From: Prevotella sp.
Lineage (GTDB): Bacteria > Bacteroidota > Bacteroidia > Bacteroidales > Bacteroidaceae
Reading direction: 5' to 3'
Assembly: GCA_022771625.1 (NCBI GenBank)
Contig: JALFCW010000084.1
Coordinates: 1 to 37,105, forward strand
DNA: 37,105 bases
The notes under the pieces were generated by a model that saw only the letters and a program-made list of their open reading frames with translations, did not search any database and had not been told where the DNA came from. Shown in pieces: positions 2,872-18,529 of this stretch. Numbering within the stretch: position 1 is the stretch's first letter; each line of letters starts with the position of its first letter. Made by a program: the position numbers and the translations under genes.

Positions 2872-2897
2872 CTCTGTGCATCTGTGTCTCTGTGTTC
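2872..2897 (+). repeat. dispersed CTCTGTG-rich intergenic repeat
   Basis: This stretch between the GH2 gene and the next promoter has a CTCTGTG-(C/A)TC-(C/T)GTGTCTCTGTGTTC pattern. It is nearly the same as 29407-29432 downstream of the trp operon, where an inverted partner is also present. It is non-coding here, although a spurious open frame (from 2876) crosses it. Confidence 0.7.
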
Positions 2898-2961
2898 CAA
2901 TAAAACAACAGGAGAGAAATGTTTATCTTACGCTAAGAAAAGATAATTTATTCTCTTTTCC

Positions 2962-2992
2962 TTTGCCAAACCGATTTTTTGTATTATCTTTG
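2962..2992 (+). promoter_or_regulatory. Bacteroidetes-type promoter of the AAA-ATPase/nuclease gene
   Basis: A TTTG at 2962-2965 is followed after 19 bp by TATCTTTG at 2985-2992, matching the -33/-7 consensus of the Bacteroidetes primary sigma factor. Transcription should begin near 2999, which rules out the in-frame ATG at 2876 as the translation start. Confidence 0.7.
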
Positions 2993-3037
2993 CCCCCGAA
3001 TTGTGGGCATATCACTCCTGCAACAGTCAAACAAGCC

Positions 3038-4648: not shown

Positions 4649-4704
4649 GGGCCAAAGCCACTCTAATGCTAATCCACTGTGAGCCCAATCATTGTATAAT
4701 AATT

Positions 4705-4748
4705 CACTGGACTTACACTGGAGGAACACTGGACTTACACTGGAGGAA
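4705..4748 (+). repeat. two exact tandem copies of a 22-bp unit
   Basis: The unit starting CACTGGACTTACACTGG occurs at 4705-4726 and again at 4727-4748 without a spacer. It is non-coding and follows the AAA-ATPase/nuclease gene. No function is recognised. Confidence 0.85.
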
Positions 4749-4800
4749 CACAGTGGCTTCACTTTAACAAAAAAACACCATTTTGTCAAAAAACCTTCAT

Positions 4801-5032
4801 CCTTCACCTTTAAGGGCAAAAGCCCTTTGTTTATCGGGGTTTCAGAGGGTGAAGGTTGTTGAAAATACCTTCACCTAACCTTCACCATTGATTCCACTTA
4901 TCTTCCTATTGTCTTAACAATATTGTCTCGGATAAAAAGAGATGGAGGTGAAGGTTGGGTGAAGGTTTCGCGAGCAACCTTCACCTTGCGAAACCCTTAT
5001 AAACACTGGGAATTCAAGGCGATTGGTGAAGG
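4801..5032. repeat. array of eight CCTTCACC / GGTGAAGG octamers in both orientations
   Basis: Octamers lie at 4801, 4848, 4868, 4879, 4947, 4958, 4978 and 5025 (start positions), alternating between strands. GGTGAAGGTT at 4958-4967 pairs perfectly with AACCTTCACC at 4976-4985. GGTTTCGC at 4964-4971 can pair instead with GCGAAACC at 4988-4995, so two hairpins compete. A small AAGGGC-AAAA-GCCCTT hairpin lies at 4812-4827 and could help end the upstream transcript. No coding frame was found across 4650-5270. Confidence 0.8.
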
Positions 5033-5273
5033 TTGAAGAATAATTCACAAATCTGTCATCATTCAGCATACAGAATGTTCTATTTTTCCCATTTGTGAAT
5101 AATGAGCAGGCAAGAAGTGACTCCGATCTTCCTTCGCTATAACTTTGCTGTAACTCCGCTTTTTTATTATTGAATTAGCATTGTTCGAATATTCCTACAA
5201 TGGAAATAAATGCTATTGAATCATAGCGACATTGAATCATAGGGATAGGTACTGAAGTGAACCTGCAAATCAA

Positions 5274-5492
5274 TTACAATTCCTGTTTCAATTCTTCATA
5301 CAAATCTACCGGGCCTAAATGCCAGTATTTAGTACTCTCTGAAGATAGTTTCTTGTATAATTTTGAATGATATATACGGTTAATGGCTTCAGTGATACTG
5401 ATGCCTTTATCTTCAACCACCCATTTTGCAAGCCACCCAATCTTGACGGGAAGCAATAAATACAAGTTGTCTTGTGTTATTGTTGCACTCAT
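5274..5492 (-). CDS. small hypothetical protein (72 aa) of a DUF3791/DUF3990-type cassette
   Basis: This 72-residue protein starts M-S-A-T-I-T-Q-D-N and is acidic near its end, with no membrane segment. Its ATG overlaps the TGA of a DUF3990-like remnant as ATGA, a translationally coupled junction, so it was once (or still is) the last gene of a three-gene set read leftwards: DUF3791, DUF3990, this gene. I think it belongs to the short helical proteins that accompany DUF3990 genes, but I cannot name its family with confidence. If DUF3990 is an ADP-ribosyltransferase-type effector, as its neighbourhoods suggest, this could be a partner or antitoxin now without its target. Confidence 0.6.
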   Translation of the reverse strand: MSATITQDNLYLLLPVKIGWLAKWVVEDKGISITEAINRIYHSKLYKKLSSESTKYWHLGPVDLYEELKQEL

Positions 5493-5593
5493 AATTTTAC
5501 TTCTATTGATTCAATATATTTAATGGCATTCAAAGCCCTCTCTGTGTGAAAAAGATATATCCTTCGCTCCGCTAGTTTCTTTGCCTGTGCTTT
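5489..5593 (-). pseudogene. C-terminal remnant of a DUF3990-type gene
   Basis: The minus strand between the two small genes has an open frame of 34 codons and a stop with no start codon. It ends L-F-H-T-E-R-A-L-N-A-I-K-Y-I-E-S and then I-E-V-K-L. This H-T-E-R-A-L-x-x-(I/L)-x-(Y/F)-(I/V) ending is what I recall at the C-terminus of DUF3990 proteins. Its TGA overlaps the ATG of the 72-aa gene. Its 5' end runs into the last codons of the DUF3791-like gene, in another frame. The simplest reading is an internal deletion that removed about 100 or more codons of a toxin-like gene and left both small partners. Confidence 0.55.
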
Positions 5594-5850
5594 CTATTGT
5601 TAATCATTTCGTCTATTTCCTCTATCAACCAATTATGTCCGTAAGTATGGAGCACTTCGAAAAACTCACAGAAGTGTTCCGTAATGCCATATTTCTCAAA
5701 TAGACTCACCACATCTTCTGTTGACATATTCTTAGCTCTGGCATATTGCTCAATGCAGAACGACACGAAACGCGCTCTTTCTTCAACTATGCCCATCTGG
5801 CACTGTTTGAACTCTTTTTCCAATTGATTAAGTTCTTTTTCCATAATCAT
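5572..5850 (-). CDS. DUF3791 domain-containing small protein
   Basis: The 92-residue protein (90 if the second ATG at 5844 is used) has an amphipathic lead-in followed by F-V-S-F-C-I-E-Q-Y-A-R-A-K-N-M-S, then V-S-L-F-E-K-Y-G-I, and an end around E-V-L-H-T-Y-G-H-N-W-L-I-E-E-I-D. This is the pattern of DUF3791, a short helical family usually encoded directly upstream of DUF3990. The function is not established; the arrangement suggests a toxin-antitoxin-like cassette. A promoter lies upstream at 5912-5943. Its own 3' end overlaps the DUF3990 remnant. Confidence 0.7.
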   Translation of the reverse strand: MIMEKELNQLEKEFKQCQMGIVEERARFVSFCIEQYARAKNMSTEDVVSLFEKYGITEHFCEFFEVLHTYGHNWLIEEIDEMINNRKHRQRN

Positions 5851-5911
5851 AAATATATGTTTTCAATAATCAATGTCGTATTCATACATTTATATTTATT
5901 ATTTCGGAGGC

Positions 5912-5943
5912 AAAATTACATATTTTATCTCAAACCACCAAAC
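5912..5943 (-). promoter_or_regulatory. promoter of the DUF3791-like gene
   Basis: On the minus strand, TTTG (5943-5940) is followed after 20 bp by TAATTTTG (5919-5912), a good match to the Bacteroidetes -33/-7 consensus. This would give a 5' leader of about 55 nt. Confidence 0.6.
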
Positions 5944-6007
5944 TATTTAAGGTTTTTCTTGTTTTTATTATTGGTGTATGGGAAAAGGCCGGTGTCAAAG
6001 GTGTCAG

Positions 6008-6044
6008 TGATTCTTCCCAATGTCGTGTCGCAATATGTATTGAA
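6008..6044 (+). repeat. 37-bp direct repeat flanking the Rpn-like gene, left copy
   Basis: The sequence beginning TGATTCTTCCCAATGTCG is repeated at 7091-7127 with one difference (A/G near the end). Two GGTGTCA motifs precede it (5991 and 6000). The pair brackets the Rpn-like nuclease gene. Confidence 0.9.
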
Positions 6045-6136
6045 TGAAGTTTATCGCTCCCGTATGCAAAAAAGTATATTATAATGTAATAGGTATCGAA
6101 TAAATAGGCATTATTATCAAAAAAAAAGAGAAAAAG

Positions 6137-6167
6137 TTTGCAATATGGATTTTTTTATCTATCTTTG
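6137..6167 (+). promoter_or_regulatory. promoter of the Rpn-like nuclease gene
   Basis: TTTG at 6137-6140, a 19-bp spacer, then TATCTTTG at 6160-6167. The expected transcript start lies about 10 nt before the ATG at 6185, giving a very short leader. Confidence 0.7.
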
Positions 6168-6184
6168 CAGAAAAATATTGTGAT

Positions 6185-7009
6185 ATGGCAAAATACATTA
6201 ATCCTTTCACCGATGTCGGTTTCAAGAGAATCTTCGGACAAGAGCTGTCGAAACCGCTGCTGCTCGACTTCCTCAATAGCCTTTTTGAGGGGGAGAAGCA
6301 CATCGTCAACCTTACATTCCTCGACAAGGAACAACCTGCCTTGTTTGAAGAAGACAGGTCGCTGATATACGACATTTATTGCGAGACCGACGAGGGCGAG
6401 AAGATAATAGTAGAGATGCAAAACAAATCACAGCCATTCTTCAAGAACAGGAGCATATATTATGTCTCGGAGTCGATAGCCCGCCAGGGCGAGCGAGGGT
6501 CGGCATGGAACTATGCAATAGACTCGGTCTATCTTGTGGCATTCCTCAATTTCAGCCCTATAGACTTCAAGAAGCAGTTCCGCACGGATGTCGTTCTGGC
6601 AGAAAAAGGCACCAAGGAGCAGTTCTCCGACAAGTTGCGGATGATATTCCTACAGCTCCCGTTGTTCACGAAGGAGGCCAATGAATGTGAGAATCAAGTA
6701 GAACGTTGGATTTATTTATTGAAGAATATGGAAACACTTAACAGATTACCCTGGGCGGCTCAGAGTGCCGTCTTCCAGAAGCTCGAGAGCATAGCCGATG
6801 TTGGCGGAATGACCCGTGCCGAGCGCCTGCAATACGACGAAGCTCTCAAGAAATACCGCGACACCATCAGTGTGTTTGAAGGCGTGCGCATGGAAGGACG
6901 AAAGGAAGGTATCGTAGCAAATGCCCGTAAGATGAAATCATACGGTTTCACATTGGAAATGATATCTGATATCACAGGATTGACAATGGAAGAAGTGAGA
7001 GATTTATAG
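6185..7009 (+). CDS. Rpn family recombination-promoting nuclease / PD-(D/E)XK transposase-like protein
   Basis: This 274-residue protein begins M-A-K-Y-I-N-P-F-T-D-V-G-F-K-R-I-F-G, the hallmark start of the Rpn/PDDEXK_2 family (TIGR01784 type). The nuclease core is visible as Y-D63-I-Y-C-E-T and E77-M-Q79, where Q replaces the usual K as is common in this family. The C-terminal end (about 225-274) is charged and helical, with a G-R-K-E-G-I motif and a helix-turn-helix-like segment, also typical. Known Rpn proteins of E. coli promote RecA-independent recombination and have been linked to defence; here the role is inferred only. The gene has its own promoter and lies between 37-bp direct repeats 6008-6044 and 7091-7127, suggesting it arrived as a unit. 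Confidence 0.88.
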   Translation: MAKYINPFTDVGFKRIFGQELSKPLLLDFLNSLFEGEKHIVNLTFLDKEQPALFEEDRSLIYDIYCETDEGEKIIVEMQNKSQPFFKNRSIYYVSESIARQGERGSAWNYAIDSVYLVAFLNFSPIDFKKQFRTDVVLAEKGTKEQFSDKLRMIFLQLPLFTKEANECENQVERWIYLLKNMETLNRLPWAAQSAVFQKLESIADVGGMTRAERLQYDEALKKYRDTISVFEGVRMEGRKEGIVANARKMKSYGFTLEMISDITGLTMEEVRDL

Positions 7010-7048
7010 TCTCCCCACTTTGGGGTGTCAATGGTGTCAGTGTCAAAG

Positions 7049-7073
7049 GTGTCAAACAAAAATGTATGACACC
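7049..7073. repeat. GGTGTCA/TGACACC inverted repeat after the Rpn-like gene
   Basis: GGTGTCA at 7049-7055 pairs with TGACACC at 7067-7073 over an 11-nt loop. Two more GGTGTCA copies lie at 7024 and 7033, and two at 5991 and 6000 upstream of the gene. The hairpin may end the Rpn transcript, but no T-run follows it directly. Confidence 0.5.
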
Positions 7074-7253
7074 TTATTTAATGTTATCAATGATTCTTCC
7101 CAATGTCGTGTCGCAATATGTGTTGAACATATTAAGCCTGACTGGCACATATTCAGGCAAACTCTGAAGGAACTCCAAGTCAAAGACCAAGCGAGGGTCT
7201 TTGTCATCACAATCCTTATGCACCTCTGCCTTCGAACCTATGCGGGCAACGCA
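7074..7253 (-). pseudogene. possible gene remnant, 59 codons, family not recognised
   Basis: The minus-strand frame ending at TAA 7076-7074 reads like protein: V-F-D-L-E-F-L-Q-S-L-P-E-Y-V-P-V and then R-L-N-M-F-N-T-Y-C-D-T-T-L-G-R-I. It has no convincing start and a stop just upstream. The 37-bp repeat lies inside it, and the left copy (6008-6044) encodes the same F-N-T-Y-C-D-T-T-L-G-R-I in the same frame before diverging. Both look like tails of one unrecognised gene. Low confidence. Confidence 0.3.
7091..7127 (+). repeat. 37-bp direct repeat flanking the Rpn-like gene, right copy
   Basis: Partner of 6008-6044, identical at 36 of 37 positions. Beyond it the sequence differs completely from the left flank. 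The segment between the copies (about 1.05 kb) holds only the Rpn-like gene, its promoter and short repeats. Confidence 0.9.
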
Positions 7254-7387
7254 TTACCAAGGAAGCTAAGTTTCAGTGTAAAAATGTCAAACAATAGAAT
7301 AAACGTATTCTTTTTTACCCTCTGAATTAAAAACAAGGCATATTTATGAAATAATTGAGGTGCGATAATGAAAAAATATCTTAATAG

Positions 7388-7419
7388 TTTGGTTTTTACA
7401 ATAATTCTTCGTACTTTTG
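7388..7419 (+). promoter_or_regulatory. promoter of the helicase/AIPR operon
   Basis: TTTG at 7388-7391, a 20-bp spacer and TACTTTTG at 7412-7419 fit the Bacteroidetes consensus. The first gene of the operon starts at 7444. No comparable promoter was seen between the four genes, whose gaps are 19 bp, -4 bp and 7 bp. Confidence 0.7.
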
Positions 7420-7443
7420 CCAACAATTATAACATAAAGGCCT

Positions 7444-9630
7444 ATGCTCGATAAAAATGACATACTAGGAAATTTGAATGATAGGCAGTCTGAAGCTGTC
7501 GAAACAACAGAAGGTCACGTTCGTGTTGTGGCAGGTGCAGGTTCTGGTAAAACGAGAGTCCTGGCACATCGATATGCTTTTTTGGTTAATGAGTTGGGTA
7601 TTGACCCAGGAAATATTCTGTGTATGACATTTACCAATAAGGCTGCTCAGGAAATGAAACGACGTATTTCCAAGCTTGTTCATCGGGGAAATGTTAATGA
7701 CTTTGTCTGCACAATTCACGGATTCTGTGTCAAGTTTCTCAGAGAAGAAATATTTCGCATAGGATATCCAAAAAATTTCATAATATCAGATGAGGAAGAT
7801 TCAAAAATGCTTGCCAAGCAAGTCATGGAAGAATTCAATATTGGAATAGATAAAACAAATGTGAAAAAATTCCTCGATAGCATTCGGGATTTTAAGAGTT
7901 TTGATACAGACTATTATATTGACAATATTATATTGCCAAATTCAGATATATCAACCAGTAAAGAAGATATAAGGATAAGATATATCCAACTTCAGCAAAA
8001 GAACTACATGTTGGATTTTAACGATATCATTTACTTCACTATCTACATAATGAGCCATAATGAAGATGCACTTTCTTCATGGCAGCAGAAGATGAACTAT
8101 ATCATGGTTGATGAGGTGCAGGATTGTAGCACTAGTGATTGGAAAATCATAAATTATCTTGAAGGTTATTATGGCAATCTGTTTATTGTTGGTGATCCCG
8201 ACCAATGTATATATGAATGGAGGGGTGCAATACCTGATTCCTTTATACGTTTCAAAACAGATGGTGATATTATCCTAAATCAAAATTATCGTTCCACTCC
8301 GAATATCCTTGATGTAGCAAATTCAATAATTGAACATAATCAGAATCGAATACCAAAAGATTTATTCACCAAATCACCAAAAGAAAAAATTGTATTACAT
8401 TACCATGGCAAGTCTGAAATTGAAGAAGCAGAATGGGTAGCAAAACAAATAGAAATTATTGCCAAGAATGGTTTTGATTATAACAGTTTTGCTATTCTAT
8501 ATCGTGCCTCTTATATTTCCAGAAATATTGAGCAGGCCTTGATGCATAAGCAGATCAAGTATGTTATTTGGGGAGGCATTCGCTTTTTTGAGCGCAGGGA
8601 AATAAAAGATATTCTTGCGTATTTCAGACTTATAGCAAATAAAAGAGACGACATTGCCTTTCAGAGAATTATTAATACTCCTTCAAGAAAATTTGGAAAA
8701 GTTTCTCTGGCCAAACTACAGGAAATGGCCGAAGCTGAGAATGCTACTCTTTACGATACCTTATGTAAATACAAGAGTTTTTTCGACAAACCATCCATTA
8801 TCAATTTTATTCGTATTATTGATGGATTTACAGAGAAAAGCAAGTTCACTCGGGTATCAGATTTATTCGACCAAGTCTTTAAAGAAACAGGGCTGGAAGA
8901 GATGTATCGCACAGAAGGTGATGATGAAAGACTTGAGAATATTTCCGAATTAAAACATTCAATCATTGAATATGAACGAATGAATGCAGAAGAAGAGGAT
9001 ATTAATCTTAACACATATCTTCAAGACATTGCCTTATATACTAATGCCGACTACAAAAACGACGGCGATACTGTTAAGTTAATGACTATACATCAGTCAA
9101 AAGGTTTGGAATTTCCATTCGTGTTTGTTTGCGGTTTAAGTGAAGGCATTTTCCCAAGCCATCGCACAATCCGTGAAAGAAGGAAACGTGGAGAAGAGGA
9201 AGAACGACGTTTAATGTATGTAGCGGTAACAAGGGCTGAAAAGGGACTTTTCCTAACAGAATCTGAGGGATATAATTTTGCAACACGTTCAGATAAGTAT
9301 CCTTCGCGTTTCCTGCGTGAAATCAAAGATGGCCTTGTCGAAATAGAAGGTGACCTTACGAAGAGGCAATTAAGCAAATTGTATATTGGTACTCAGGAGT
9401 TAATTGATGAATTAGAAATCGAGATTAACCAACCCTCATACCAAATTGGTGACAAGGTGGCTCATAAATACTTTGGAATTGGAGAGATAATAGAAATCGT
9501 TTCCGATACAAGTATAAGAGTTAGATTTGATAAAGGAGAACGTAGTATCCAACCCAATTACTTAAAGTTTTGGGATGGAACAAAAACAATAGAAGAATTG
9601 TTTGAAAGCAAGAAAACAAATAAAGAATAA
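7444..9630 (+). CDS. UvrD/PcrA-like superfamily 1 helicase, first gene of a putative defence operon
   Basis: This 728-residue protein has the full SF1A motif set: Q-motif L-N-D-R-Q-S-E-A-V, motif I A-G-A-G-S-G-K-T (about 30-37), Ia F-T-N-K-A-A-Q-E-M, II V-D-E-V-Q-D (about 222), III V-G-D-P-D-Q-C-I-Y-E-W-R-G, IV L-N-Q-N-Y-R-S-T, V T-I-H-Q-S-K-G-L-E-F and VI V-A-V-T-R-A-E-K-G (about 593). A PcrA-like C-terminal tail follows (G-D-K-V-A-H-K-Y-F-G-I-G, about 660-705). It is expected to translocate 3'-5' on single-stranded DNA using ATP. It is AT-rich and sits with AIPR and a second helicase, so it is more likely an accessory copy than the housekeeping UvrD/PcrA. It is close enough to normal UvrD/PcrA that a repair role cannot be excluded. 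Confidence 0.9.
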   Translation: MLDKNDILGNLNDRQSEAVETTEGHVRVVAGAGSGKTRVLAHRYAFLVNELGIDPGNILCMTFTNKAAQEMKRRISKLVHRGNVNDFVCTIHGFCVKFLREEIFRIGYPKNFIISDEEDSKMLAKQVMEEFNIGIDKTNVKKFLDSIRDFKSFDTDYYIDNIILPNSDISTSKEDIRIRYIQLQQKNYMLDFNDIIYFTIYIMSHNEDALSSWQQKMNYIMVDEVQDCSTSDWKIINYLEGYYGNLFIVGDPDQCIYEWRGAIPDSFIRFKTDGDIILNQNYRSTPNILDVANSIIEHNQNRIPKDLFTKSPKEKIVLHYHGKSEIEEAEWVAKQIEIIAKNGFDYNSFAILYRASYISRNIEQALMHKQIKYVIWGGIRFFERREIKDILAYFRLIANKRDDIAFQRIINTPSRKFGKVSLAKLQEMAEAENATLYDTLCKYKSFFDKPSIINFIRIIDGFTEKSKFTRVSDLFDQVFKETGLEEMYRTEGDDERLENISELKHSIIEYERMNAEEEDINLNTYLQDIALYTNADYKNDGDTVKLMTIHQSKGLEFPFVFVCGLSEGIFPSHRTIRERRKRGEEEERRLMYVAVTRAEKGLFLTESEGYNFATRSDKYPSRFLREIKDGLVEIEGDLTKRQLSKLYIGTQELIDELEIEINQPSYQIGDKVAHKYFGIGEIIEIVSDTSIRVRFDKGERSIQPNYLKFWDGTKTIEELFESKKTNKE

Positions 9631-9649
9631 ATAAATATACATATACATT

Positions 9650-11500
9650 ATGAATGAACAATTAAATAGTTACGTCGGTACTCTTATAGAGGATACTATG
9701 ATGGTGATGGATGAATACCAAACACCAGTAATGGCTTTTACAGCAACTGTGCTTGATAAAATCGAGGATTTACTTGATTGTAAAGAGATCGTCAAGGAAC
9801 ATTGCATAGTAACAAAGAAAAATGGCGATATAATTGGGGAAATTCATGCGTATTCAGAAAGTACAAATGGAGAAGTTTTATATCTCTTTTATACAGATTT
9901 CCATTCTGGCAGTGACATTTTGGTTAAAAATAATACAGAGTTGCAAAAATCATTAAATCGTCTTCAAGGATTCTATGATAAAGCTATTCATGGTATTCAT
10001 CATGATGTCGATTCTTCATCTGCGGAATATAGAGCGGGGAAGTTTATTAGTGATAACATTAATAATTATACGTCTGTAAATTTAGTCGTTCTATCAAACT
10101 ATATAATCAATAACCCGGAAATTAAAAAGTTGAGAATCGCATCAAAACCTGTTTTCTGTGATATATGGGATTTAAAAAAAATATATGGCAACACTCATTC
10201 TATGAGTGACCATGTAGCTATTGATATTGATTTCGAAGCAGAAGAATATAAACGATATAAAATTCCATTTATCCAGATGGAATCCTCTCTTTATGGATAT
10301 AAGTGTATTCAGGCTATGTTTCCTGCAAAACTTTTGTATCAACTCTATGAACGTTATAATACAAAACTTTTATATAATAATGTAAGATACTTTCTCGGAT
10401 TAAAAGGCGCAAAAGAGAAACAGCCAAATGTTGCTATGCTCAATACTCTTCGTAAAGAGAATGAAATGTTTCTTGCATATAATAATGGCATCACAGCTTT
10501 AGCAACAGGTATCGATTCAAATTTTATAACAGATAAGACTGATATAACAGATCCTGAAAGTCCAAACTCATCACAATACATTTCAATGGGTATTCTGAAA
10601 AAGATATCAGACTTTCGTATCATCAATGGAGGACAAACAACCGCTGTATTATACAACGCAAAAAATCTGAGTAAAGGAACAAATGAGACGGATAAAAAAG
10701 TTAGCTTATTGGGAGTTTTCGTACAGGTCAAACTTATTATAAGTGAAGAAATAGAGAAAATATCAGGAAACATAGCCCTTTCTTCCAATTTTCAAAATAG
10801 AGTAAAGTATTCTGATTTCTCGGTGGGTAATGAATTTAACACTAAAATGGAGATATTATCCAGAAATATTATTGCTCCTAATCCTAATAAGGATCTTATT
10901 TATTGGTTTTATGAAAGACTCCGTGGACAATATGACGAGCAGAAAAAACATCTTATTATAAAAGCGGATAAAGATTATTTTAATTCTAGATTTCCTAAAA
11001 ACAAAAAATTCTCAAAAGAAGATGTAGCCAAAATATGGTCAAATTGGGACCAAAGACCTTTTGATGCGGTAAAAGGAGCGAGTACTACCTATGGTGCATT
11101 CATGAAGGGTATTATAGAAAGGAGTGTCGTTCCTGACGAGAATTATTACAAGCAAACTGTGGCTCTTCTTATCATATATAAATTCTTAATGTCACGACCT
11201 GAGAATAAAAATTACGCAAATGGAAAAGCCACTATTATTGCTTATGCTATGGCAATGTTAGAATACCAAACAATGAACAAATTTGACTTGTTAAAGGTTT
11301 GGGAGAATCAGAGTATATCTGATCACACAAAGATTTATTTGAATAAACTTTGTGATAAATTATATGAGCTTTTAGATGAACAGGCAAGAACATTGAGTAC
11401 TTCTGTCCTTTCTTATGGAAAGACATCAAAGGCTTATGAATTTATAAAATCACAATCACTTGACATCGATATACATTTACTTGACAACGATTTATTATGA
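9650..11500 (+). CDS. AIPR family protein (abortive infection phage resistance)
   Basis: In this 616-residue protein the AIPR signature is clear in the middle: F-L-G-L-K-G-A, then Y-N-N-G-I-T-A-L-A-T (about residue 280), then F-R-I-I-N-G-G-Q-T-T-A-V-L-Y (about 325), followed by V-Q-V-K-L-I-I-S. The family (PF10592) was named from a lactococcal abortive infection protein and recurs beside restriction and helicase genes; its molecular activity is not settled. It starts 19 bp after the UvrD-like gene, and its TGA overlaps the ATG of the next gene by 4 bp (ATGA), so translation of the two is probably coupled. The N-terminal 200 residues have no recognised domain. No membrane segment or signal peptide. 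Confidence 0.88.
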   Translation: MNEQLNSYVGTLIEDTMMVMDEYQTPVMAFTATVLDKIEDLLDCKEIVKEHCIVTKKNGDIIGEIHAYSESTNGEVLYLFYTDFHSGSDILVKNNTELQKSLNRLQGFYDKAIHGIHHDVDSSSAEYRAGKFISDNINNYTSVNLVVLSNYIINNPEIKKLRIASKPVFCDIWDLKKIYGNTHSMSDHVAIDIDFEAEEYKRYKIPFIQMESSLYGYKCIQAMFPAKLLYQLYERYNTKLLYNNVRYFLGLKGAKEKQPNVAMLNTLRKENEMFLAYNNGITALATGIDSNFITDKTDITDPESPNSSQYISMGILKKISDFRIINGGQTTAVLYNAKNLSKGTNETDKKVSLLGVFVQVKLIISEEIEKISGNIALSSNFQNRVKYSDFSVGNEFNTKMEILSRNIIAPNPNKDLIYWFYERLRGQYDEQKKHLIIKADKDYFNSRFPKNKKFSKEDVAKIWSNWDQRPFDAVKGASTTYGAFMKGIIERSVVPDENYYKQTVALLIIYKFLMSRPENKNYANGKATIIAYAMAMLEYQTMNKFDLLKVWENQSISDHTKIYLNKLCDKLYELLDEQARTLSTSVLSYGKTSKAYEFIKSQSLDIDIHLLDNDLL

Positions 11501-14500
11501 CATCATTATTTATCAAACAGATTATTGAGGACTCGTGCCAAGACTATGATATAATTGTCTTAAAAGGTTTCTCTCCCAAACTTATCACTGAGTTGGGAGA
11601 ACATCTTTTATTGTTGGATAATTACATATTTGAGAATGGAGAAATTGTATTAGACAGAATAAATGCGAACAGTCTTATGCTATCAATTCTCAATTGTAAT
11701 AGCCATCAAAAGGCTATTTGCACGTGCGAGTCACTAATAATGATGTGCACTCAAATAGCCAACCTAAATATTTTAAACAAAAGAATATGCGTCATAGATA
11801 ATAACTTTTTTGAACTCTATCCTAATCCAACAACCTCAGATATCCCGGATTTTGATAGTGAAGCTTTTATGGACACAGAAGGCGATAATGCTTTGTATAG
11901 CGCATTTTACTCTTATTGCATTAGTGAAAATGGCATGCAACGAATACAGTATATTGACAATTATTCAATGAATAATACTTGTCTCACTGTCAAGAACTTA
12001 GCAGAGCCTCAACCTTTATGTGTACAGGAAATAACACAAGATGCAAGTAATATAAGAATTTTATCCACAAAAGATAATTCTTTGAATGCGATATTTGAGG
12101 ACTTGTATGAGAATATGTCCATAAGTGAAAATGTATTTGCTGTTGAAACAGAAGAAGTCAATGAAGAAAGAATTCTTGCGTTCGCTCAAGCATGTAAGAT
12201 GTTCGGATGTCCAGTCAAACTTTATATGATTTCACGGGATCTAAATGTTTCACCTAGGCAAGAACTATATGAATTACTTTATAAGACATGGGGATACAAT
12301 TCATTTCGTGATCTAAAAATCTATAAAGATCTAAATGTTAACCATGATGTCAGTACCATTTCACAAGGTACAATTATCGAAACTGTTATTCAACAAGCAG
12401 AACACGCATACAACGGCGAAATTGATAAAGTAAACAATATACTTCTAACATCTCCGACTGGAGCTGGAAAATCTTTATTGTTTCAACTATCTGCCATATA
12501 TCTTGCAGAACAATTTGGTTTGCTAACAATCGTCGTTTCACCACTTGTTGCCCTCATGAATGACCAAGTGGACGGATTAAATTACAATGGTGTTGCAACT
12601 CTAAACAGTAATAAGACTGCTGCAGATAAAGATTCCATATTAAGAGGAGTACGTGACAAAACTATCAATCTTCTTTACCTATCTCCGGAACTATTGTTAT
12701 CTTATTCTATAACGACATTTATTGGAGACAGAAAACTTGGCTTGTTAGTTGTAGATGAAGCACATACCGTAACGACATGGGGACGTGATTTCCGAGTTGA
12801 TTATTGGTTCTTGGGTGATTATTTACGCAAAGCAAGGCGTATATTGAAATACCCATTCCCAATTTTTGCATTAACAGCTACAGCTGTTTGGGACCCAACA
12901 GGAAAAAACGATATGGTTTTTGATACTATCCGCTCCCTTAATATGGATCCATGCATAAAGTATATTGGCGTAGTACGAAGAGATAACATCTCATTTGCAA
13001 TCAATATGTCTAATATATCCAACAATTACGAAGAAAAGAGACGTGCACTTACAATACAAAGAATTCGAGAAGCCTTGATGGATAATCTGAAGACAATTGT
13101 ATATTTCCCTTTTAAGAGAACAGTTGACTCTATTGTATTAGGTGACGAAGTAAAAGACATTTCTTCGAAGATAGCTCGTTATCATGCTGAGTTATTCCCA
13201 GAAGAAAAGATAATTAATGCTGTTGCCTTTCGTAATGGAACAAAACCTATAATGTGCGCAACTAAAGCTTTTGGAATGGGTATTGACGTATCAGATATAC
13301 GTGAAGTATATCATCATGCACCTACAGGATGCTTATCTGATTATGTGCAAGAAATAGGACGTTTAGCAAGAGATCCGCAAATAAAAGGTATTGCAAAAAT
13401 TGATTTTTCAACAAAAGACTTTAGGTATATTAGAAAGTTACATGGTTTATCTGCCATTAAACCCTATCAGTTAATGCAAGTATTAAAGAAATTAATGGCT
13501 ATCTATAGGATTAATGGAGAGAAAAGAAATATGCTCATTTCATCATCAGACTTTAATTACATATTTCCCCTTTCAACCCCTGAAAATGTTGACCAAAACT
13601 TAAAGAGTTGCCTATTACTTATTAGCAATGACTTATTGAACAAACTGCGTTTCCATGCACTAATCGTGCGCCCAAAAAGTTTATTTAGCAAATGCTATGT
13701 AGAAGTGCCGTTAAGTGAATCGAAAAGTTTCTATCGACATAACAAGAATTATTTAAGACACATTACGGATACTATCTTTATTCTTGATGCAGACAAAATA
13801 TGGAATGAAAAATATACAAAATATAGTTTTCCCAAGTTCAAGTTTAAACTTGCAGAAGGTCAAATATTTCAAGGATATCATGTCCAGCTCAGAAACAAAG
13901 TCACATTGTGCCTACATGATGATGTAGTTAAAGTAAAGAACTCAATAATTGAATTCTTCCATTATGCTCATCATTTTCTAAACGAAATGAGTAGCCAACA
14001 TCATCGTATAGATTTCAATACAATAAAGTCTTCGTTACCTCAGAGCTATGACAGTCTCAAAAGAGAACAATTCTTAGAAACATTTCGCATGCTCTATACC
14101 ACACCTAATGCGCTTGGCGGAGACGTCGCAGCTTATTGTAGTATCTTTATTTCAAGAGAGGGACAACAAACACCCCGTGAATCTTTTCAGTTGATGCAAA
14201 GTGGATATGAGAATGTTGCCAACTTATATTTGACAGCATACGATGCTATAATAAATAGTACTGAAATATGTTGTTATTGTGACACTAATGACAATATTGT
14301 CAAGCTAAGCGAGTTTCTAAATAGTTTAGGAGTTGCTGATTACCAACGCCAAGGAGGTGACCAACCTGCAATCTTTGTTCGTATCAATAATCCATACTAC
14401 CTTAATATGCTTATCCGTAATAGGAGTTATGAAAATGATATTTTAAATAGCATATATGAGAAATATCGTTACTCTGAAAGAATATTTACTTATTTCTTCA

Positions 14501-14589
14501 CAACACCAATGACAGATGAGCAGCGATGGGATTTTATAGAAGAGTATTTTCTCGGAGCAAGCGAAGAACGTCTTTTGAATTATATTTAG
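11497..14589 (+). CDS. large RecQ-like superfamily 2 DNA helicase with unrecognised N- and C-terminal regions
   Basis: In this 1030-residue protein, residues about 315-670 form an SF2 helicase of RecQ type: motif I S-P-T-G-A-G-K-S (about 318), Ia V-V-S-P-L-V-A-L-M-N-D-Q-V, II V-V-D-E-A-H (about 418), III A-L-T-A-T-A, IV I-V-Y-F-P-F, V A-F-G-M-G-I-D-V and VI Q-E-I-G-R-L-A-R-D (about 617). It has only a partial RecQ zinc region and no HRDC domain that I can see. The first 300 residues, with two acidic stretches, match no family I know; nor does the C-terminal 350. The ATG overlaps the AIPR stop by 4 bp. ATP-driven DNA unwinding is a safe inference; the target is unknown. Length and flanking domains set it apart from housekeeping RecQ (about 600-730 residues). 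Confidence 0.85.
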   Translation: MTSLFIKQIIEDSCQDYDIIVLKGFSPKLITELGEHLLLLDNYIFENGEIVLDRINANSLMLSILNCNSHQKAICTCESLIMMCTQIANLNILNKRICVIDNNFFELYPNPTTSDIPDFDSEAFMDTEGDNALYSAFYSYCISENGMQRIQYIDNYSMNNTCLTVKNLAEPQPLCVQEITQDASNIRILSTKDNSLNAIFEDLYENMSISENVFAVETEEVNEERILAFAQACKMFGCPVKLYMISRDLNVSPRQELYELLYKTWGYNSFRDLKIYKDLNVNHDVSTISQGTIIETVIQQAEHAYNGEIDKVNNILLTSPTGAGKSLLFQLSAIYLAEQFGLLTIVVSPLVALMNDQVDGLNYNGVATLNSNKTAADKDSILRGVRDKTINLLYLSPELLLSYSITTFIGDRKLGLLVVDEAHTVTTWGRDFRVDYWFLGDYLRKARRILKYPFPIFALTATAVWDPTGKNDMVFDTIRSLNMDPCIKYIGVVRRDNISFAINMSNISNNYEEKRRALTIQRIREALMDNLKTIVYFPFKRTVDSIVLGDEVKDISSKIARYHAELFPEEKIINAVAFRNGTKPIMCATKAFGMGIDVSDIREVYHHAPTGCLSDYVQEIGRLARDPQIKGIAKIDFSTKDFRYIRKLHGLSAIKPYQLMQVLKKLMAIYRINGEKRNMLISSSDFNYIFPLSTPENVDQNLKSCLLLISNDLLNKLRFHALIVRPKSLFSKCYVEVPLSESKSFYRHNKNYLRHITDTIFILDADKIWNEKYTKYSFPKFKFKLAEGQIFQGYHVQLRNKVTLCLHDDVVKVKNSIIEFFHYAHHFLNEMSSQHHRIDFNTIKSSLPQSYDSLKREQFLETFRMLYTTPNALGGDVAAYCSIFISREGQQTPRESFQLMQSGYENVANLYLTAYDAIINSTEICCYCDTNDNIVKLSEFLNSLGVADYQRQGGDQPAIFVRINNPYYLNMLIRNRSYENDILNSIYEKYRYSERIFTYFFTTPMTDEQRWDFIEEYFLGASEERLLNYI

Positions 14590-14596
14590 CCATATT

Positions 14597-15244
14597 ATGC
14601 ATATATATTTTGTAAATCAGTATTCAAAAATTGTTGGTCCTTTTGACATAACGGATTCCAATCACCAAAAAAATATTCGTAATGGCGATGTGATTATTCG
14701 AGATACCAGTGACGGATTATGTTTCTTGATTGTCACTTCATCAATAAACAAATGGAATAGATGCAAATGTATTGATACAGTCCAAGACCATCTAAAGAGA
14801 GAGGGAAACTTCCTTCTTTTTTCCTTTGATGGTATTAGTAAAAGATTTGGTGACATACAAGCTTTAACAGAACTCTGTCAACTATTTCAAAATCCACCAT
14901 GTCATGACTTCTTTGAAAACGCTCTTTCAATTTTGACTTATAAATGCGATTTATGGGATATTAGTATCTTCAAAGATATACATTCCTTAACTCCATTTGA
15001 AATATATAATGATAATGCTGATAAGTCTATAGTAATAGATAAAAAACCATACTCCCAATATTTATTTGAAGATTATTTTGATACTAACATGCACTCTACG
15101 TTTCTCAAACTTGTTGGACAGAATACACCATTGAGAGATGTATATAATAAGATTAGAAGACAATATCCCAAAGAATTTAGGTCTGCATTGATGTCGTTTA
15201 TTCGTGATCATCCTAATTCAACTATATATGATAAAATAAAATAA
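14597..15244 (+). CDS. hypothetical protein, fourth gene of the helicase/AIPR operon
   Basis: This 215-residue protein begins 7 bp after the helicase stop, so it belongs to the same operon. The first 55 residues read as beta strands: I-Y-F-V-N-Q, I-V-G-P-F-D-I-T, N-G-D-V-I-I-R-D. This weakly recalls the GYF_2-type fold (G-P-F followed by a G-x-(I/V) turn), but I would not assign it. The rest is mixed and charged, with a helical C-terminus (R-D-V-Y-N-K-I-R-R-Q-Y-P). There is no signal peptide, membrane helix or catalytic motif. It may be a small partner or sensor of the helicase. Function unknown. Confidence 0.75.
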   Translation: MHIYFVNQYSKIVGPFDITDSNHQKNIRNGDVIIRDTSDGLCFLIVTSSINKWNRCKCIDTVQDHLKREGNFLLFSFDGISKRFGDIQALTELCQLFQNPPCHDFFENALSILTYKCDLWDISIFKDIHSLTPFEIYNDNADKSIVIDKKPYSQYLFEDYFDTNMHSTFLKLVGQNTPLRDVYNKIRRQYPKEFRSALMSFIRDHPNSTIYDKIK

Positions 15245-15264
15245 ACAAAAAAATCACGAAACAT

Positions 15265-15295
15265 TTTGCTATGTCGAAATATATTTATACCTTTG
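15265..15295 (+). promoter_or_regulatory. promoter of the DpnI-like gene
   Basis: TTTG at 15265-15268, a 19-bp spacer, TACCTTTG at 15288-15295, and an ATG at 15319. This gives the endonuclease gene its own promoter, separate from the four-gene operon that ends at 15244. No GATC lies in this promoter. Confidence 0.7.
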
Positions 15296-15318
15296 CAGTA
15301 TTATAAACAATAATTGAT

Positions 15319-16083
15319 ATGCAGCTGAATTTGGATTATAGCTTATGCGAGGGCTACAAGAGTAATACGCAAAAGATGAGAGTGGTCACAGAAAAGTGGG
15401 TAGAACAGAATATGTTCTGCCCCATCTGCGGACGCCCACATCTACATCACTATACGGCCAACAAACCGGTGGCTGACTTTTGTTGTGAGGATTGCCATAA
15501 CGATTTTGAACTGAAAAGCAAGAATCAGGTGGCTCTTGGTAAAGTGATTAATGATGGGGCATACAACACTATGATGGAGAGACTCAACGACTTGCATAAT
15601 CCAAACTTCCTATTCATGACTCACACGGACGAATATGTGAGAAACTTCATACTTATCCCAAACCATTTTTTCACTCCCGAGATTATCATTAAGCGCAAAC
15701 CATTAGCAGATGATGCGCGCAGAGCAGGATGGGTGGGATGCAATATCAATATTGCCGACATTCCACAAAGCGGAAAGATATATATTGTAAAAGACGGGGT
15801 GGAAATAGACCGTAACAAGGTGATTGACGACTATGCTAGAATAAGGTCGCTGGCAACGAACAGCCTTACTTCAAGAGGTTGGATGCTGGATGTGCTGTCG
15901 TGCGTGGAAAGAGTGAAAGATGACGTGTTCACACTTAAGGAGATGTATGATTTCTGCGACGAACTTCAGGAAAAGCATCGTGACAATGCTCACGTTAAAG
16001 ACAAGATAAGGCAACAGTTGCAATTTCTGAGAGACAAGGGTCTTGTGGAATTTTTAGGAAGAGGTAACTATAGGCGCTTGTAA
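15319..16083 (+). CDS. DpnI-family methyl-directed restriction endonuclease
   Basis: This 254-residue protein is the same length as DpnI and, as I recall that sequence, similar along its whole length. The N-terminal nuclease domain has a zinc site (C34-P-I-C37 and C56-x-x-C59) and a PD-(D/E)XK centre D53 ... E64-L-K66. Then come K-P-L-A-x-x-A-R-R-A-G-W-x-G-C-N-I, S-S/T-R-G-W and a winged-helix C-terminus ending K-I-R-Q-Q-L-Q-F-L-R-D-K-G and then R-G-N-Y-R-R-L. Known DpnI cuts GATC when the adenine is methylated, and both of its domains read the methylated site. The expected role is restriction of Dam-methylated incoming DNA. The next gene is a DpnA-like adenine methyltransferase, which is paradoxical if both act on GATC. 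The coding sequence contains no GATC. Confidence 0.92.
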   Translation: MQLNLDYSLCEGYKSNTQKMRVVTEKWVEQNMFCPICGRPHLHHYTANKPVADFCCEDCHNDFELKSKNQVALGKVINDGAYNTMMERLNDLHNPNFLFMTHTDEYVRNFILIPNHFFTPEIIIKRKPLADDARRAGWVGCNINIADIPQSGKIYIVKDGVEIDRNKVIDDYARIRSLATNSLTSRGWMLDVLSCVERVKDDVFTLKEMYDFCDELQEKHRDNAHVKDKIRQQLQFLRDKGLVEFLGRGNYRRL

Positions 16084-16097
16084 TTCATTGATTGTTA

Positions 16098-16226
16098 TTT
16101 TGTGATCAATAATTAACAATGCAGGTATTGCATATTTGTCTTATATTGACAATAAAGTTATTGATAATCAACTAATTATCTAATTGATCTTTTTTGATCA
16201 CAAAAGTCAAACTATGATCTTTTGTG
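16098..16226 (+). promoter_or_regulatory. GATC-rich control region ahead of the DpnA-like methyltransferase gene
   Basis: Four GATC sites lie at 16104, 16186, 16196 and 16216, within 116 bp, while the flanking coding sequences have none. TTTTGTGATCA (16098-16108) recurs inverted as TGATCACAAAA (16195-16205). CACAAAAG (16199-16206) also pairs with CTTTTGTG (16219-16226) as an 8-bp inverted repeat. The last GATC overlaps the only nearby -33-like TTTG (16221-16224). This looks like an operator set read by a GATC-binding protein (the methyltransferase, or the winged helix of the DpnI-like protein), which is inference. Confidence 0.6.
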
Positions 16227-16247
16227 TATTTTTTCAAGATATTCCAC

Positions 16248-16255
16248 TACCTTTG
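16248..16255 (+). promoter_or_regulatory. -7 element of the methyltransferase gene (near-leaderless transcript)
   Basis: TACCTTTG fits the -7 consensus. With the usual 5-9 nt to the transcript start, the RNA would begin within a few bases of the ATG at 16264, so the mRNA should be leaderless or nearly so. The closest TTTG upstream (16221-16224) is 23 bp away, longer than the usual 19-21, which may indicate a weak or activated promoter. Confidence 0.55.
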
Positions 16256-16263
16256 CAGCCGCA

Positions 16264-17169
16264 ATGGAATATCAGTTGGACATACACAAGGATAAGGCAT
16301 TTTATGTGTCACAGAGAAAGGATTTCACCCTCATCAAGGGTGACTCGTTCTCTGTTATGCCCGACTTTGATTTTAAGTTCGACATGATATTTGCCGACCC
16401 TCCTTATTTCCTTTCCAACGGCGGAATATCCTTGCAGAGCGGAAAGGTGGTGTGCGTGGATAAGGGAGAATGGGACAAGGGAAAGACTCCCGAGGAAATG
16501 AGAGAGTGGAATATGCAGTGGCTCGGGATGTGCAGGGATAAGCTGAAGGAGAACGGCTCGATATGGATTTCAGGCACATATCATAATATCTTCTCAGTGG
16601 CCGACTGCCTGACGCAACTCGGCTACAGGATTCTTAATGTCATCACTTGGCAAAAGACCAATCCGCCTGTGAACATCTCGTGCCGGTTCTTCACCTATTC
16701 AACGGAGTTTGTGATATGGGCGAGGAAATCAAAGAAGGTGGCGCATAAGTTTAACTACGACGTGATGAAACGGCTGAACGACGGGAAGCAGATGACCGAC
16801 GTGTGGCGACTGCCTGCCATCGGCAGATGGGAGAAGTCGTGCGGCAAGCATCCAACGCAGAAGCCGCTCGCCTTGCTGACGCGTATCATACTGGCATGTA
16901 CTGACGAGGGCGACTGGGTGATGGACCCCTTCTCGGGCAGCGGAACGACGGGTATTGCCGCCAATCTGTGCGGACGACGATTCTGCGGCATCGAGCGCGA
17001 GGAGGAGTTCTGCCGTATGGCGAGGGCAAGGCGCGAGGAGATAGAGAACCTGAGGATTAAAGCCGACCTGAGAAATCACATCGCCGACCTGCGCACACTC
17101 GGCTCAGAGCCTATGCAGGACATATTTGCATGCGAGGCCGTGGCTGGGGGAAGACTACCATTCGATTAA
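16264..17169 (+). CDS. DpnA-like DNA adenine methyltransferase (beta class, N6_N4_Mtase)
   Basis: This 301-residue protein starts at ATG 16264 (M-E-Y-Q-L-D-I). The frame is open from 16222, but those codons lie over the promoter. Motif IV D45-P-P-Y is followed by F-L-S-N-G-G-I-S; motif I D-P-F-S-G-S-G-T-T is near residue 221; G-K-H-P-T-Q-K-P precedes it. This order marks the beta class. The stretch A-D-P-P-Y-F-L-S-N-G-G-I-S and the later N-D-G-K-Q-M-x-D-V-W closely follow DpnA of the pneumococcal DpnII system, which methylates adenine in GATC including on single-stranded DNA. GATC specificity is inferred from that likeness and from the GATC-laden promoter. A 25-residue C-terminal extension is unremarkable. 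GC-richer than the operon upstream. Confidence 0.88.
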   Translation: MEYQLDIHKDKAFYVSQRKDFTLIKGDSFSVMPDFDFKFDMIFADPPYFLSNGGISLQSGKVVCVDKGEWDKGKTPEEMREWNMQWLGMCRDKLKENGSIWISGTYHNIFSVADCLTQLGYRILNVITWQKTNPPVNISCRFFTYSTEFVIWARKSKKVAHKFNYDVMKRLNDGKQMTDVWRLPAIGRWEKSCGKHPTQKPLALLTRIILACTDEGDWVMDPFSGSGTTGIAANLCGRRFCGIEREEEFCRMARARREEIENLRIKADLRNHIADLRTLGSEPMQDIFACEAVAGGRLPFD

Positions 17170-17184
17170 CGTAGTGTGAGATTA

Positions 17185-17349
17185 TCATTTCGTCTGCCTT
17201 TTAGAACGTTCCATTATTGCAGTAAACATCGACTTTGCAGTTTTTAAATTATAACGGGGAGCATTAGTTTGCTCTGCCTCTATACGCATCTGTTCGAAAC
17301 GCTCTGCCGACTGACCTGTCAATATGGGTATTGGCCTTGGACTATACAT
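17185..17349 (-). CDS. small protein of 54 residues, unknown function
   Basis: This minus-strand frame reads M-Y-S-P-R-P-I-P-I-L-T-G, then a helical, charged middle (S-A-E-R-F-E-Q-M-R-I-E-A-E-Q) and an end T-A-I-M-E-R-S-K-R-Q-T-K. Support for it being real: an own promoter at 17419-17448, plausible amino-acid use, and an S-P-R-P-I-P-x-L-x-G start that I associate with short proteins of Prevotella and Bacteroides. It converges on the methyltransferase gene with 15 bp between the stops. Size and charge would suit an antitoxin or small regulator, but no toxin gene is beside it. No function is assigned. Confidence 0.55.
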   Translation of the reverse strand: MYSPRPIPILTGQSAERFEQMRIEAEQTNAPRYNLKTAKSMFTAIMERSKRQTK

Positions 17350-17418
17350 AATCTTATTATATTTCTAATGAACAATTATCAAATAAAACATTTTGAGGCA
17401 TATATAACACCTTCGCTG

Positions 17419-17448
17419 CAAAGTTACTGCTTTTTCAGGGAAAACAAA
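17419..17448 (-). promoter_or_regulatory. promoter of the 54-residue small gene
   Basis: On the minus strand, TTTG (17448-17445), an 18-bp spacer and TAACTTTG (17426-17419). The leader before ATG 17349 would be about 60 nt. Confidence 0.55.
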
Positions 17449-17561
17449 TGATTTTTTGGGAAATATCGTGTTTTGTTATATATCTTTAACGTATTATCAT
17501 ACTCTCATTATATTTCGTATGCATGAGTAGTTAGTATAGCCTGTTATTGCTCTAATGTTTT

Positions 17562-17643
17562 GGTTCGAAGGCTTCGGATGGAGATACGAAGCTTTCGTAT
17601 CTCCGTTCGAAGCTTTCGGATGGACATACAAAGCTTTGTGTGG
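17562..17643. repeat. two imperfect ~40-bp units with internal palindromes around AAGCTT
   Basis: The units start GTTCGAAG at about 17563 and 17605. The first contains GGAGATACGAA (17580-17590) facing TTCGTATCTCC (17594-17604) over 3 nt. The second contains the 12-bp palindrome ACAAAGCTTTGT (17628-17639). Both can form hairpins. No coding frame is evident from 17450 to 17960. Confidence 0.75.
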
Positions 17644-17723
17644 ATACAATGATAGCCTGTTGAGAACATAACTGAAGTTAAGTTCTGACAGTTTCTCAAC
17701 AGCCGTTCAGTTAGTTACTAAAT

Positions 17724-17840
17724 AGCCTATTCACTCAATGTCACTACAGCCTATTCACTCAATGCCATTACCGTTGTTTTTTCAATGTCACAACACTCTG
17801 TTCATTCAATGTCACTACAGCCTGTTCTTTATGTCAAGAG
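17724..17840. repeat. about five degenerate tandem copies of a 24-bp unit
   Basis: The units begin at 17724, 17748, 17772, 17795 and 17819. The first two differ at 2 of 24 positions; the later ones are more divergent but keep TTCA-x-TCAATGTCAC. The shared core AGCCT(A/G)TT also occurs singly near 17537 and 17653. Spacing is constant with no unique spacers. Confidence 0.8.
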
Positions 17841-17963
17841 ATGAACATACATAATACAAATACTCTTAGTATCTGAAGTTCTAAATCACTTGTCAAAATG
17901 TTAAATATGTTTATATATAGCATATCCGTTACAAAAAGATTCGGTCGTTTGCCACTTTTTCGC

Positions 17964-17971
17964 TACCTTTG
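17964..17971 (+). promoter_or_regulatory. -7 element ahead of the conserved hypothetical gene
   Basis: TACCTTTG, 39 nt before ATG 18011. A TTTG at 17948-17951 is only 12 bp away, so the -33 element is not a clear match. Confidence 0.5.
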
Positions 17972-18010
17972 CAGCGTTGTAAGATAAACGTTCAAAAAGA
18001 GCTACGCATT

Positions 18011-18481
18011 ATGAACAACATCTATTTCCCAGACGAAGAGATAACTTTCAATGATCTCTATTTTGTATGCTATATGATAGAACGCACAGCACGCCATCTT
18101 CATCAGCGTAATAACTATGTTGTAAAGAAGTTAGGTAAGGCGGCTCTAGAGCGTCAGCTATCCATCGCAGGAACATTGCATTGTCTTAACCCAGAGCAGG
18201 TGGTTGCTGACTGGAAGGAAGAGTATGCACTTGAATCAGGAAACTTTGATGTAACATCCATAAATCCCCAATTCACAGACAAGATTCCATCAGAAACCCA
18301 AATGGGAAAAGTATATGCACGACTGGTTTATTCAATTACACCTTCAGGAGGCAACTTTGCTGATTCTATCATCAGCGTCTATGCCTCTCCTATCTGCGAA
18401 ACGATAGACAACTATAATAGCAGTGCCTACTATGAACCAAGTTACGTTCAGACAAAGGCATATTTGAATGGAACTTTTTGA
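18011..18481 (+). CDS. conserved hypothetical protein (156 aa)
   Basis: Starting at ATG 18011 (M-N-N-I-Y-F-P-D-E-E-I-T) gives 156 residues. The in-frame ATG at 17969 lies on the -7 element and is rejected. The protein is soluble, with F-V-C-Y-M-I-E-R-T-A-R-H-L-H-Q-R-N-N-Y near the start and D-N-Y-N-S-S-A-Y-Y-E-P-S-Y near the end, and no known catalytic motif. I recall similar hypothetical proteins in Prevotella and Bacteroides genomes but no characterised member. It converges on guaA and shares the terminator 18490-18520 with it. Confidence 0.75.
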   Translation: MNNIYFPDEEITFNDLYFVCYMIERTARHLHQRNNYVVKKLGKAALERQLSIAGTLHCLNPEQVVADWKEEYALESGNFDVTSINPQFTDKIPSETQMGKVYARLVYSITPSGGNFADSIISVYASPICETIDNYNSSAYYEPSYVQTKAYLNGTF

Positions 18482-18489
18482 TAATAGAA

Positions 18490-18520
18490 CAGCCCGCAGA
18501 ACTTTTATGTCTGCGGGCTG
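18490..18520. terminator. bidirectional hairpin between the hypothetical gene and guaA
   Basis: CAGCCCGCAG (18490-18499) pairs with CTGCGGGCTG (18511-18520) over an 11-nt loop, a perfect 10-bp GC-rich stem. It lies 8 bp after one stop and 9 bp after the other, so it can serve both converging genes. The T-tract on the plus side is broken (CGCTCTTTCTT). Confidence 0.7.
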
Positions 18521-18529
18521 CGCTCTTTC

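Follow-up and report, generated by a model that had tools for sequence, protein, structure and literature searches.

An AIPR–helicase–partner arrangement in a Prevotella operon, possibly a compact defence set close in concept to MZA

Do four tightly packed genes in a Prevotella genome make up one defence system, and if not, which of them belong together? The genes lie on contig JALFCW010000084.1 of Prevotella sp. (assembly of 3.16 Mb in 150 contigs), whose positions 1 to 37,105 we analysed as a whole and call the window. They encode a UvrD-like helicase (P0001), an AIPR protein (P0002), a RecQ-like helicase (P0003) and a small partner (P0004), in four plus-strand open reading frames (ORFs) of 728, 616, 1030 and 215 residues with gaps of 19, -4 and 7 bp, exactly as a preliminary description of the window had placed them (Table 1). 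That description saw an undescribed four-gene defence system: the set is indeed not described by PADLOC or NCBIfam models or in the openly licensed papers searched, but we read the UvrD-like gene as accessory.

Our preferred answer, which we hold tentatively and at less than even confidence, is that the AIPR protein, the RecQ-like helicase and the partner form a compact MZA-like defence. The three proteins may act jointly, with phage or plasmid DNA as the probable target. In the proposed mechanism the partner, presumably a reader or loader, would load the helicase onto invading DNA, the AIPR protein would serve as a switch that grips DNA under NTP control, and the invader would be unwound or blocked by the helicase motor. 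The arrangement itself is real and close in concept to MZA, and we count the DpnI-type, methyltransferase and Rpn genes of the neighbourhood in support of this reading.

Gene order and the helicase–partner link

P0003 was matched by 2183 database proteins among 7995 scored; 120 listed relatives are 52-95% identical to it, with 98-100% coverage in all but three, and come nearly all from metagenome-type sources. A scan of contigs from sequenced species gave 237 relatives, and among the best 80 we found two close ones: L022, from a Lachnospiraceae metagenome-assembled genome (MAG; 68% identical), and L023 (47%), which contains letter for letter the L103 stretch of G349, a genome of the window's genus. 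At L023 the helicase follows a 626-residue AIPR protein (36% identical to P0002 over 627 aligned columns) after 2 bp, the gene upstream of the AIPR gene is on the other strand and there is no UvrD gene; the contig ends within the helicase. At L022 the helicase gene overlaps by 4 bp the next gene, that of a 580-residue protein in which a P0004-like N terminus is fused to a sigma factor, and no AIPR gene was found in the 540 bp of sequence upstream of the helicase or elsewhere in this MAG. AIPR–helicase adjacency is found in two of the three close loci and helicase–partner adjacency in both loci with 3' sequence; across loci L002-L102, an AIPR relative occurs only at L023 and the P0004 domain only at L022. 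The preliminary description had asked for conserved order elsewhere, which L023 provides as a second, diverged locus but L022, lacking AIPR, does not, and the quartet as a whole was not found beyond the window in the loci read.

Carriers are few in the genome surveys. They comprise the window's own genome, G349 and two genomes with 39-40% relatives among 398 genus genomes, the window's own genome and G349 among 397 related genomes, and L022's genome alone among 397 genomes of its family; a draw of 301 genomes from the family gave 14 other carriers, all with relatives of 37-43% identity. A further 96 loci have a clear helicase relative (23 of them with less than 3 kb of sequence on each side). 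Many of these helicases are 802-867 residues long, mostly from Bacteroides and with recurring neighbours, and look vertically kept; others have 1055-1330 residues. At L057, L063, L093 and L102, superfamily 2 (SF2) helicase relatives of 558-1242 residues are accompanied by genes of a type I HsdR-like family.

The pairing of helicase with partner, which occurs both as a standalone protein and as the N-terminal unit of sigma-factor fusions, was further assessed from the longest-contig value recorded in the database for each protein, with exact equality taken as a sign of a shared contig and 2000 offset controls. Comparing the 120 listed helicases with 21 standalone partners and 50 fusions, we found five helicase/standalone and six helicase/fusion coincidences; the controls averaged 0.13 and 0.27, respectively, and never exceeded 3 for either type. 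The coincident helicases are 76-78% identical to P0003 in the standalone pairs and 68-69% in the fused pairs. On a helicase tree of 122 rows, built by a quick method and with 109 rows unlabelled, the six standalone and the seven fused rows each make up one side of a branch (support 99), with one change per label, and none of 500 label shuffles was as low. Pairwise distances of helicases and partners are correlated (r 0.84; 1 of 10000 permutations), mostly from the standalone/fused split, the correlation within each type being 0.56 (282/5000) and 0.17 (1773/5000).

The three proteins

The best NCBIfam matches of P0003 are RecQ models, and its motifs are retained among the 120 listed relatives: DEAH and WG[RH]DFR in all 120, a QEIGR-type motif VI in 115 and Walker A in 110. 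It shares the core of RecQ helicases but scores below their cut-off (199.9 versus 640.2 for TIGR01389), as it does for DpdF of the Dpd 7-deazaguanine DNA system (104.8 bits versus 550), and differs from both in having an extra N-terminal domain of ~250 residues. The large flanks of its core, earlier called unknown, are so only in part, as PADLOC model C3a193 ("poss. alt. Cas3") spans residues 211-1021. N-terminal acidic residues were considered as a nuclease site. Of these, E78 is invariant (15/15 rows), but 120 can be either D or E and the residues at 41 and 118 vary, and we claim no nuclease.

AIPR proteins are common in restriction-like operons. P0002 is homologous to MzaE of MZA but belongs to another group (177 bits versus an NCBIfam cut-off of 1050). 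In a structure model its N terminus matches endonuclease folds, and none of the 10 AIPRs aligned has the catalytic (D/E)xK in the strand spanning residues 76-83. This region is predicted to have an endonuclease-like fold without the usual catalytic motif, and P0002 may be a switch rather than a nuclease. We set aside the HEPN assignment made for AIPR in a passage of PMC3506569, because the modelled N terminus matches endonuclease folds instead. Another known AIPR-containing gene set has AIPR in common with the window and differs in the remainder; by annotation it is seen at L115 and L152, and gene order and length, with components judged by eye, place it at six of eight viral AIPR loci. A wider viral scan for AIPR gave eight distant ones. 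Viral contigs L124 (6149-9572) and L125 (7863-11846) carry AIPR beside related proteins of 561 and 621 residues with a common IGTVVGNT start, possibly another AIPR-ATPase pairing.

P0004 matches no PADLOC, Pfam or NCBIfam family. The preliminary description called it an orphan; relatives do exist, 21 of them near its own size, and it corresponds to the N-terminal unit of sigma-factor fusions, here as a separate protein. The L022 fusion carries sigma-70 regions 2 and 4, and its N-terminal 240 residues, used as a query, retrieved 50 proteins of 359-981 residues, the L022 fusion included. The fusion alignment covers all of P0004, with ~215 residues to a TIYDK-like end followed by the sigma part, in 10/13 fusions; the second half of the unit is absent in the other three (that of L022, P0168 and P0193). 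Sigma regions 2 and 4 were matched in 48/64 family members kept, 48 being the number of fusions kept, and precomputed domains give both regions in each of the 48. Sigma hallmarks are kept among the 50 fusions (region 2.2 type in 45, YA-WWI in 36 and TRER-RQI in 43), and many of them should therefore be working sigma factors. P0004 is a sensor-like unit of such proteins.

P0004 does not match MzaA, the sigma factor of MZA, and gave no match to the sigma protein of L152. A sigma-like helix-turn-helix in a defence protein is likewise described in a passage of PMC12839542 for BrxL of BREX, where one tri-helical domain is attached to an AAA+ ATPase, whereas in the P0004 relatives a sensor-like unit is followed by complete sigma regions 2 and 4. 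The barrel of P0004 was also compared with PUA-like readers (EVE/YTH/ASCH). Foldseek with the P0004 model returned nothing at E<=0.001, the first rows being SH2 domains. All 50 VIA rows for the model are weak: three MvcA/MavC-group and three clostripain rows fall outside the PUA-like folds, and the remainder are YTH, EVE, ASCH, RsmE and VcaM4I, where we take 1zce, 1wmm, 2hd9 and 2gbs to be EVE and 1v6z to be RsmE. An EVE/ASCH profile test of P0004 was not significant (best probability 2.3%). The C termini of the fusions vary: P0184 carries HTH_40, and P0148 is listed with PF26340, presumably a sulfur-binding domain of McrA type, in precomputed domains, though a domain rescan did not recover it. 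P0149, P0160, P0175 and P0193 all end in a long shared domain (YKYFW...ISL...AWP) to which Pfam gave no match.

Among the features of MZA, its sigma factor is an unexplained oddity for a defence system. Here AIPR-type gene sets are again paired with sigma, but the motor and the sensor are others, and in one helicase clade the sensor stands alone, free of sigma, a natural experiment that makes the role of sigma testable. AIPR also gains a predicted, checkable architecture, an endonuclease-like fold without its motif, perhaps then a ParB/SspE-like region.

Alternative readings

Several points weigh against the three-protein defence reading. The arrangement is rare and thinly sampled as DNA, with few loci; L022 has the helicase without AIPR; and, in NCBIfam scans of seven fusions, general sigma models outscore or equal MzaA in six, MzaA itself reaching 102-164 bits versus a cut-off of 800, which lowers our confidence. 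The same sigma scores, hallmarks kept as in working transcription factors, and a patchy, rare distribution (one or two close carriers per ~400 genomes in three surveys, own genome counted) favour a non-defence module for maintenance or gene control of a mobile element, in which sigma-type partners would drive element genes and helicase and AIPR would serve replication or stability. We regard this as a plausible but doubtful explanation, since MZA, too, combines AIPR with a sigma factor, the next genes are of restriction type, and the IMG/VR viral contigs gave one confirmed, partial helicase relative (46%, L102), no partner relative and no close AIPR relative in scans that need exact peptide patterns. 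An unlikely further reading is transcription-coupled immunity, based on one large branch of relatives in which the helicase's partner is a sigma factor preceded by a sensor domain. There, the RNA polymerase of the host would carry motor and AIPR to modified DNA or foreign promoters, where they would act; the window's lineage has the sensor without sigma and would load the motor directly.

It is improbable that all four genes, UvrD included, are required in one undescribed two-motor system. Their tight spacing, a UvrD gene as low in G+C content (GC) as the remainder of the block, and the promoter pattern speak for it. We scanned the window for TTTG-N17-23-TAnnTTTG, which we take to be the Bacteroidota promoter consensus, and found eight matches versus 1.09 expected, a number reached in 0/100 shuffles; a TTGACA/TATAAT scan was uninformative (56 sites versus 49.0 expected). 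One match precedes the UvrD gene and none lies within 7444-15244, so that the single promoter claimed earlier gains support and one four-gene transcription unit is a fair reading; the next site, directly 5' of the DpnI-type gene, likely marks the operon's end and leaves that gene outside the unit. However, L023 has its AIPR–helicase pair without UvrD, the quartet recurs at no other locus read, and UvrD relatives of 49-58% at L109, L110 and L151 stand without AIPR, RecQ-like helicase or partner nearby. UvrD is thus present in one of the two AIPR–helicase loci, and with L111 also considered we set it aside as a core part; it is probably an accessory or passenger sharing the promoter. Plasmid L113 has a 42% UvrD relative but, as far as its incomplete gene table goes, no AIPR either, and P0001 is 36% identical to the other UvrD/PcrA-like copy of its own genome.

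Equally improbable, in our view, is that AIPR and helicase belong to different systems that accumulated in one defence island and have no joint function. Such islands do shuffle, and the scarcity of loci and the L022 helicase without AIPR fit this explanation too, but adjacency is kept at 36%/47% protein identity, the genes overlap or nearly touch, and partner type tracks helicase clade.

Domain scans covered seven window proteins with PADLOC, Pfam and NCBIfam and ten flanking ones with Pfam only. P0001 resembles Gabija and DRT-associated helicases (RTasHel, 2.7e-112; GajB, 3e-98), but no GajA is among the PADLOC matches listed for the seven (for two of them, the best 25 of 49 and the best 25 of 64) or among Pfam matches of the 17, and no reverse transcriptase appears among the listed PADLOC matches or by Pfam. 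An alternative Cas3-type effector, suggested by C3a193 as best PADLOC match of P0003 (2.1e-149), is very improbable, as 4500-18600 has no CRISPR-like repeat array and, besides C3a labels on both helicases, no Cas family is among the matches listed. We found no described AIPR-RecQ-sigma set in the openly licensed PMC papers searched (preprints lie outside this scope, and the acronym AIPR has other meanings).

Surroundings of the operon

Table 1. Features of the operon and its neighbourhood
Feature	Position	Strand	Detail
DUF3791 gene	5572-5850		Pfam
Rpn/PDDEXK_2 nuclease gene	6185-7009		domain searches
Promoter-like site, TTTG ... TAnnTTTG	7388..7419	+	ends 24 bp 5' of UvrD start
UvrD/PcrA-like superfamily 1 (SF1) helicase, 728 aa, P0001	7444..9630	+	UvrD-helicase, UvrD_C domains; motifs intact
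AIPR protein, 616 aa, P0002	9650..11500	+	AIPR 3.4e-62, AIPR_N 3.7e-21
AIPR residues 1-186	9650..10207	+	restriction-endonuclease-like fold in structure model
AIPR residues 213-383	10286..10798	+	possible ParB-N/SspE-like region; YNNG + NGxQT motifs; weak match
RecQ-like SF2 helicase, 1030 aa, P0003	11497..14589	+	cassette signature gene; DEAD, Helicase_C
Helicase core, residues 313-628	12433..13380	+	Walker A from 318, DEAH 420-423, WGRDFR 428-433, QEIGRLARD from 618
Partner, 215 aa, P0004	14597..15244	+	structure model: barrel plus helices 1-130, C-terminal helices 157-204
Promoter-like site before DpnI	15265..15295	+	ends 23 bp 5' of DpnI
DpnI-type (methyl-directed) restriction gene	15319-16083		domain searches
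N6 methyltransferase, CcrM-like	16222-17169		domain searches

The low GC reported earlier is confirmed, at 0.31-0.36 over 7-15 kb versus 0.44-0.54 in most flanking kilobases; low values also occur outside the block (0.35 at 5-6 kb; 0.38-0.39 at 15-16 and 17-18 kb). Domain searches likewise recovered the neighbours named in the preliminary description (Rpn nuclease, DpnI-type and DUF3791 genes, the last on the minus strand). Two PDDEXK proteins lie near the operon, Rpn and the product of an AAA-ATPase_like + PDDEXK_9 gene of normal GC upstream of the island (2876-4648). A 48-nt direct repeat (90%) at 5997-6044 and 7080-7127 flanks the Rpn gene, as if this cassette had been inserted or moved as a unit.

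Downstream, the DpnI-type gene adjoins the CcrM-like N6 methyltransferase gene (15319-17169 together), a combination in which conflict is expected unless their sites differ. The TTG at which the methyltransferase ORF begins falls within a promoter-like site (16221-16255), and the true start of the gene is therefore probably the in-frame ATG at 16264. Beyond this gene, 17727-17827 holds four imperfect 30-nt copies at a spacing of 23-24 bp.
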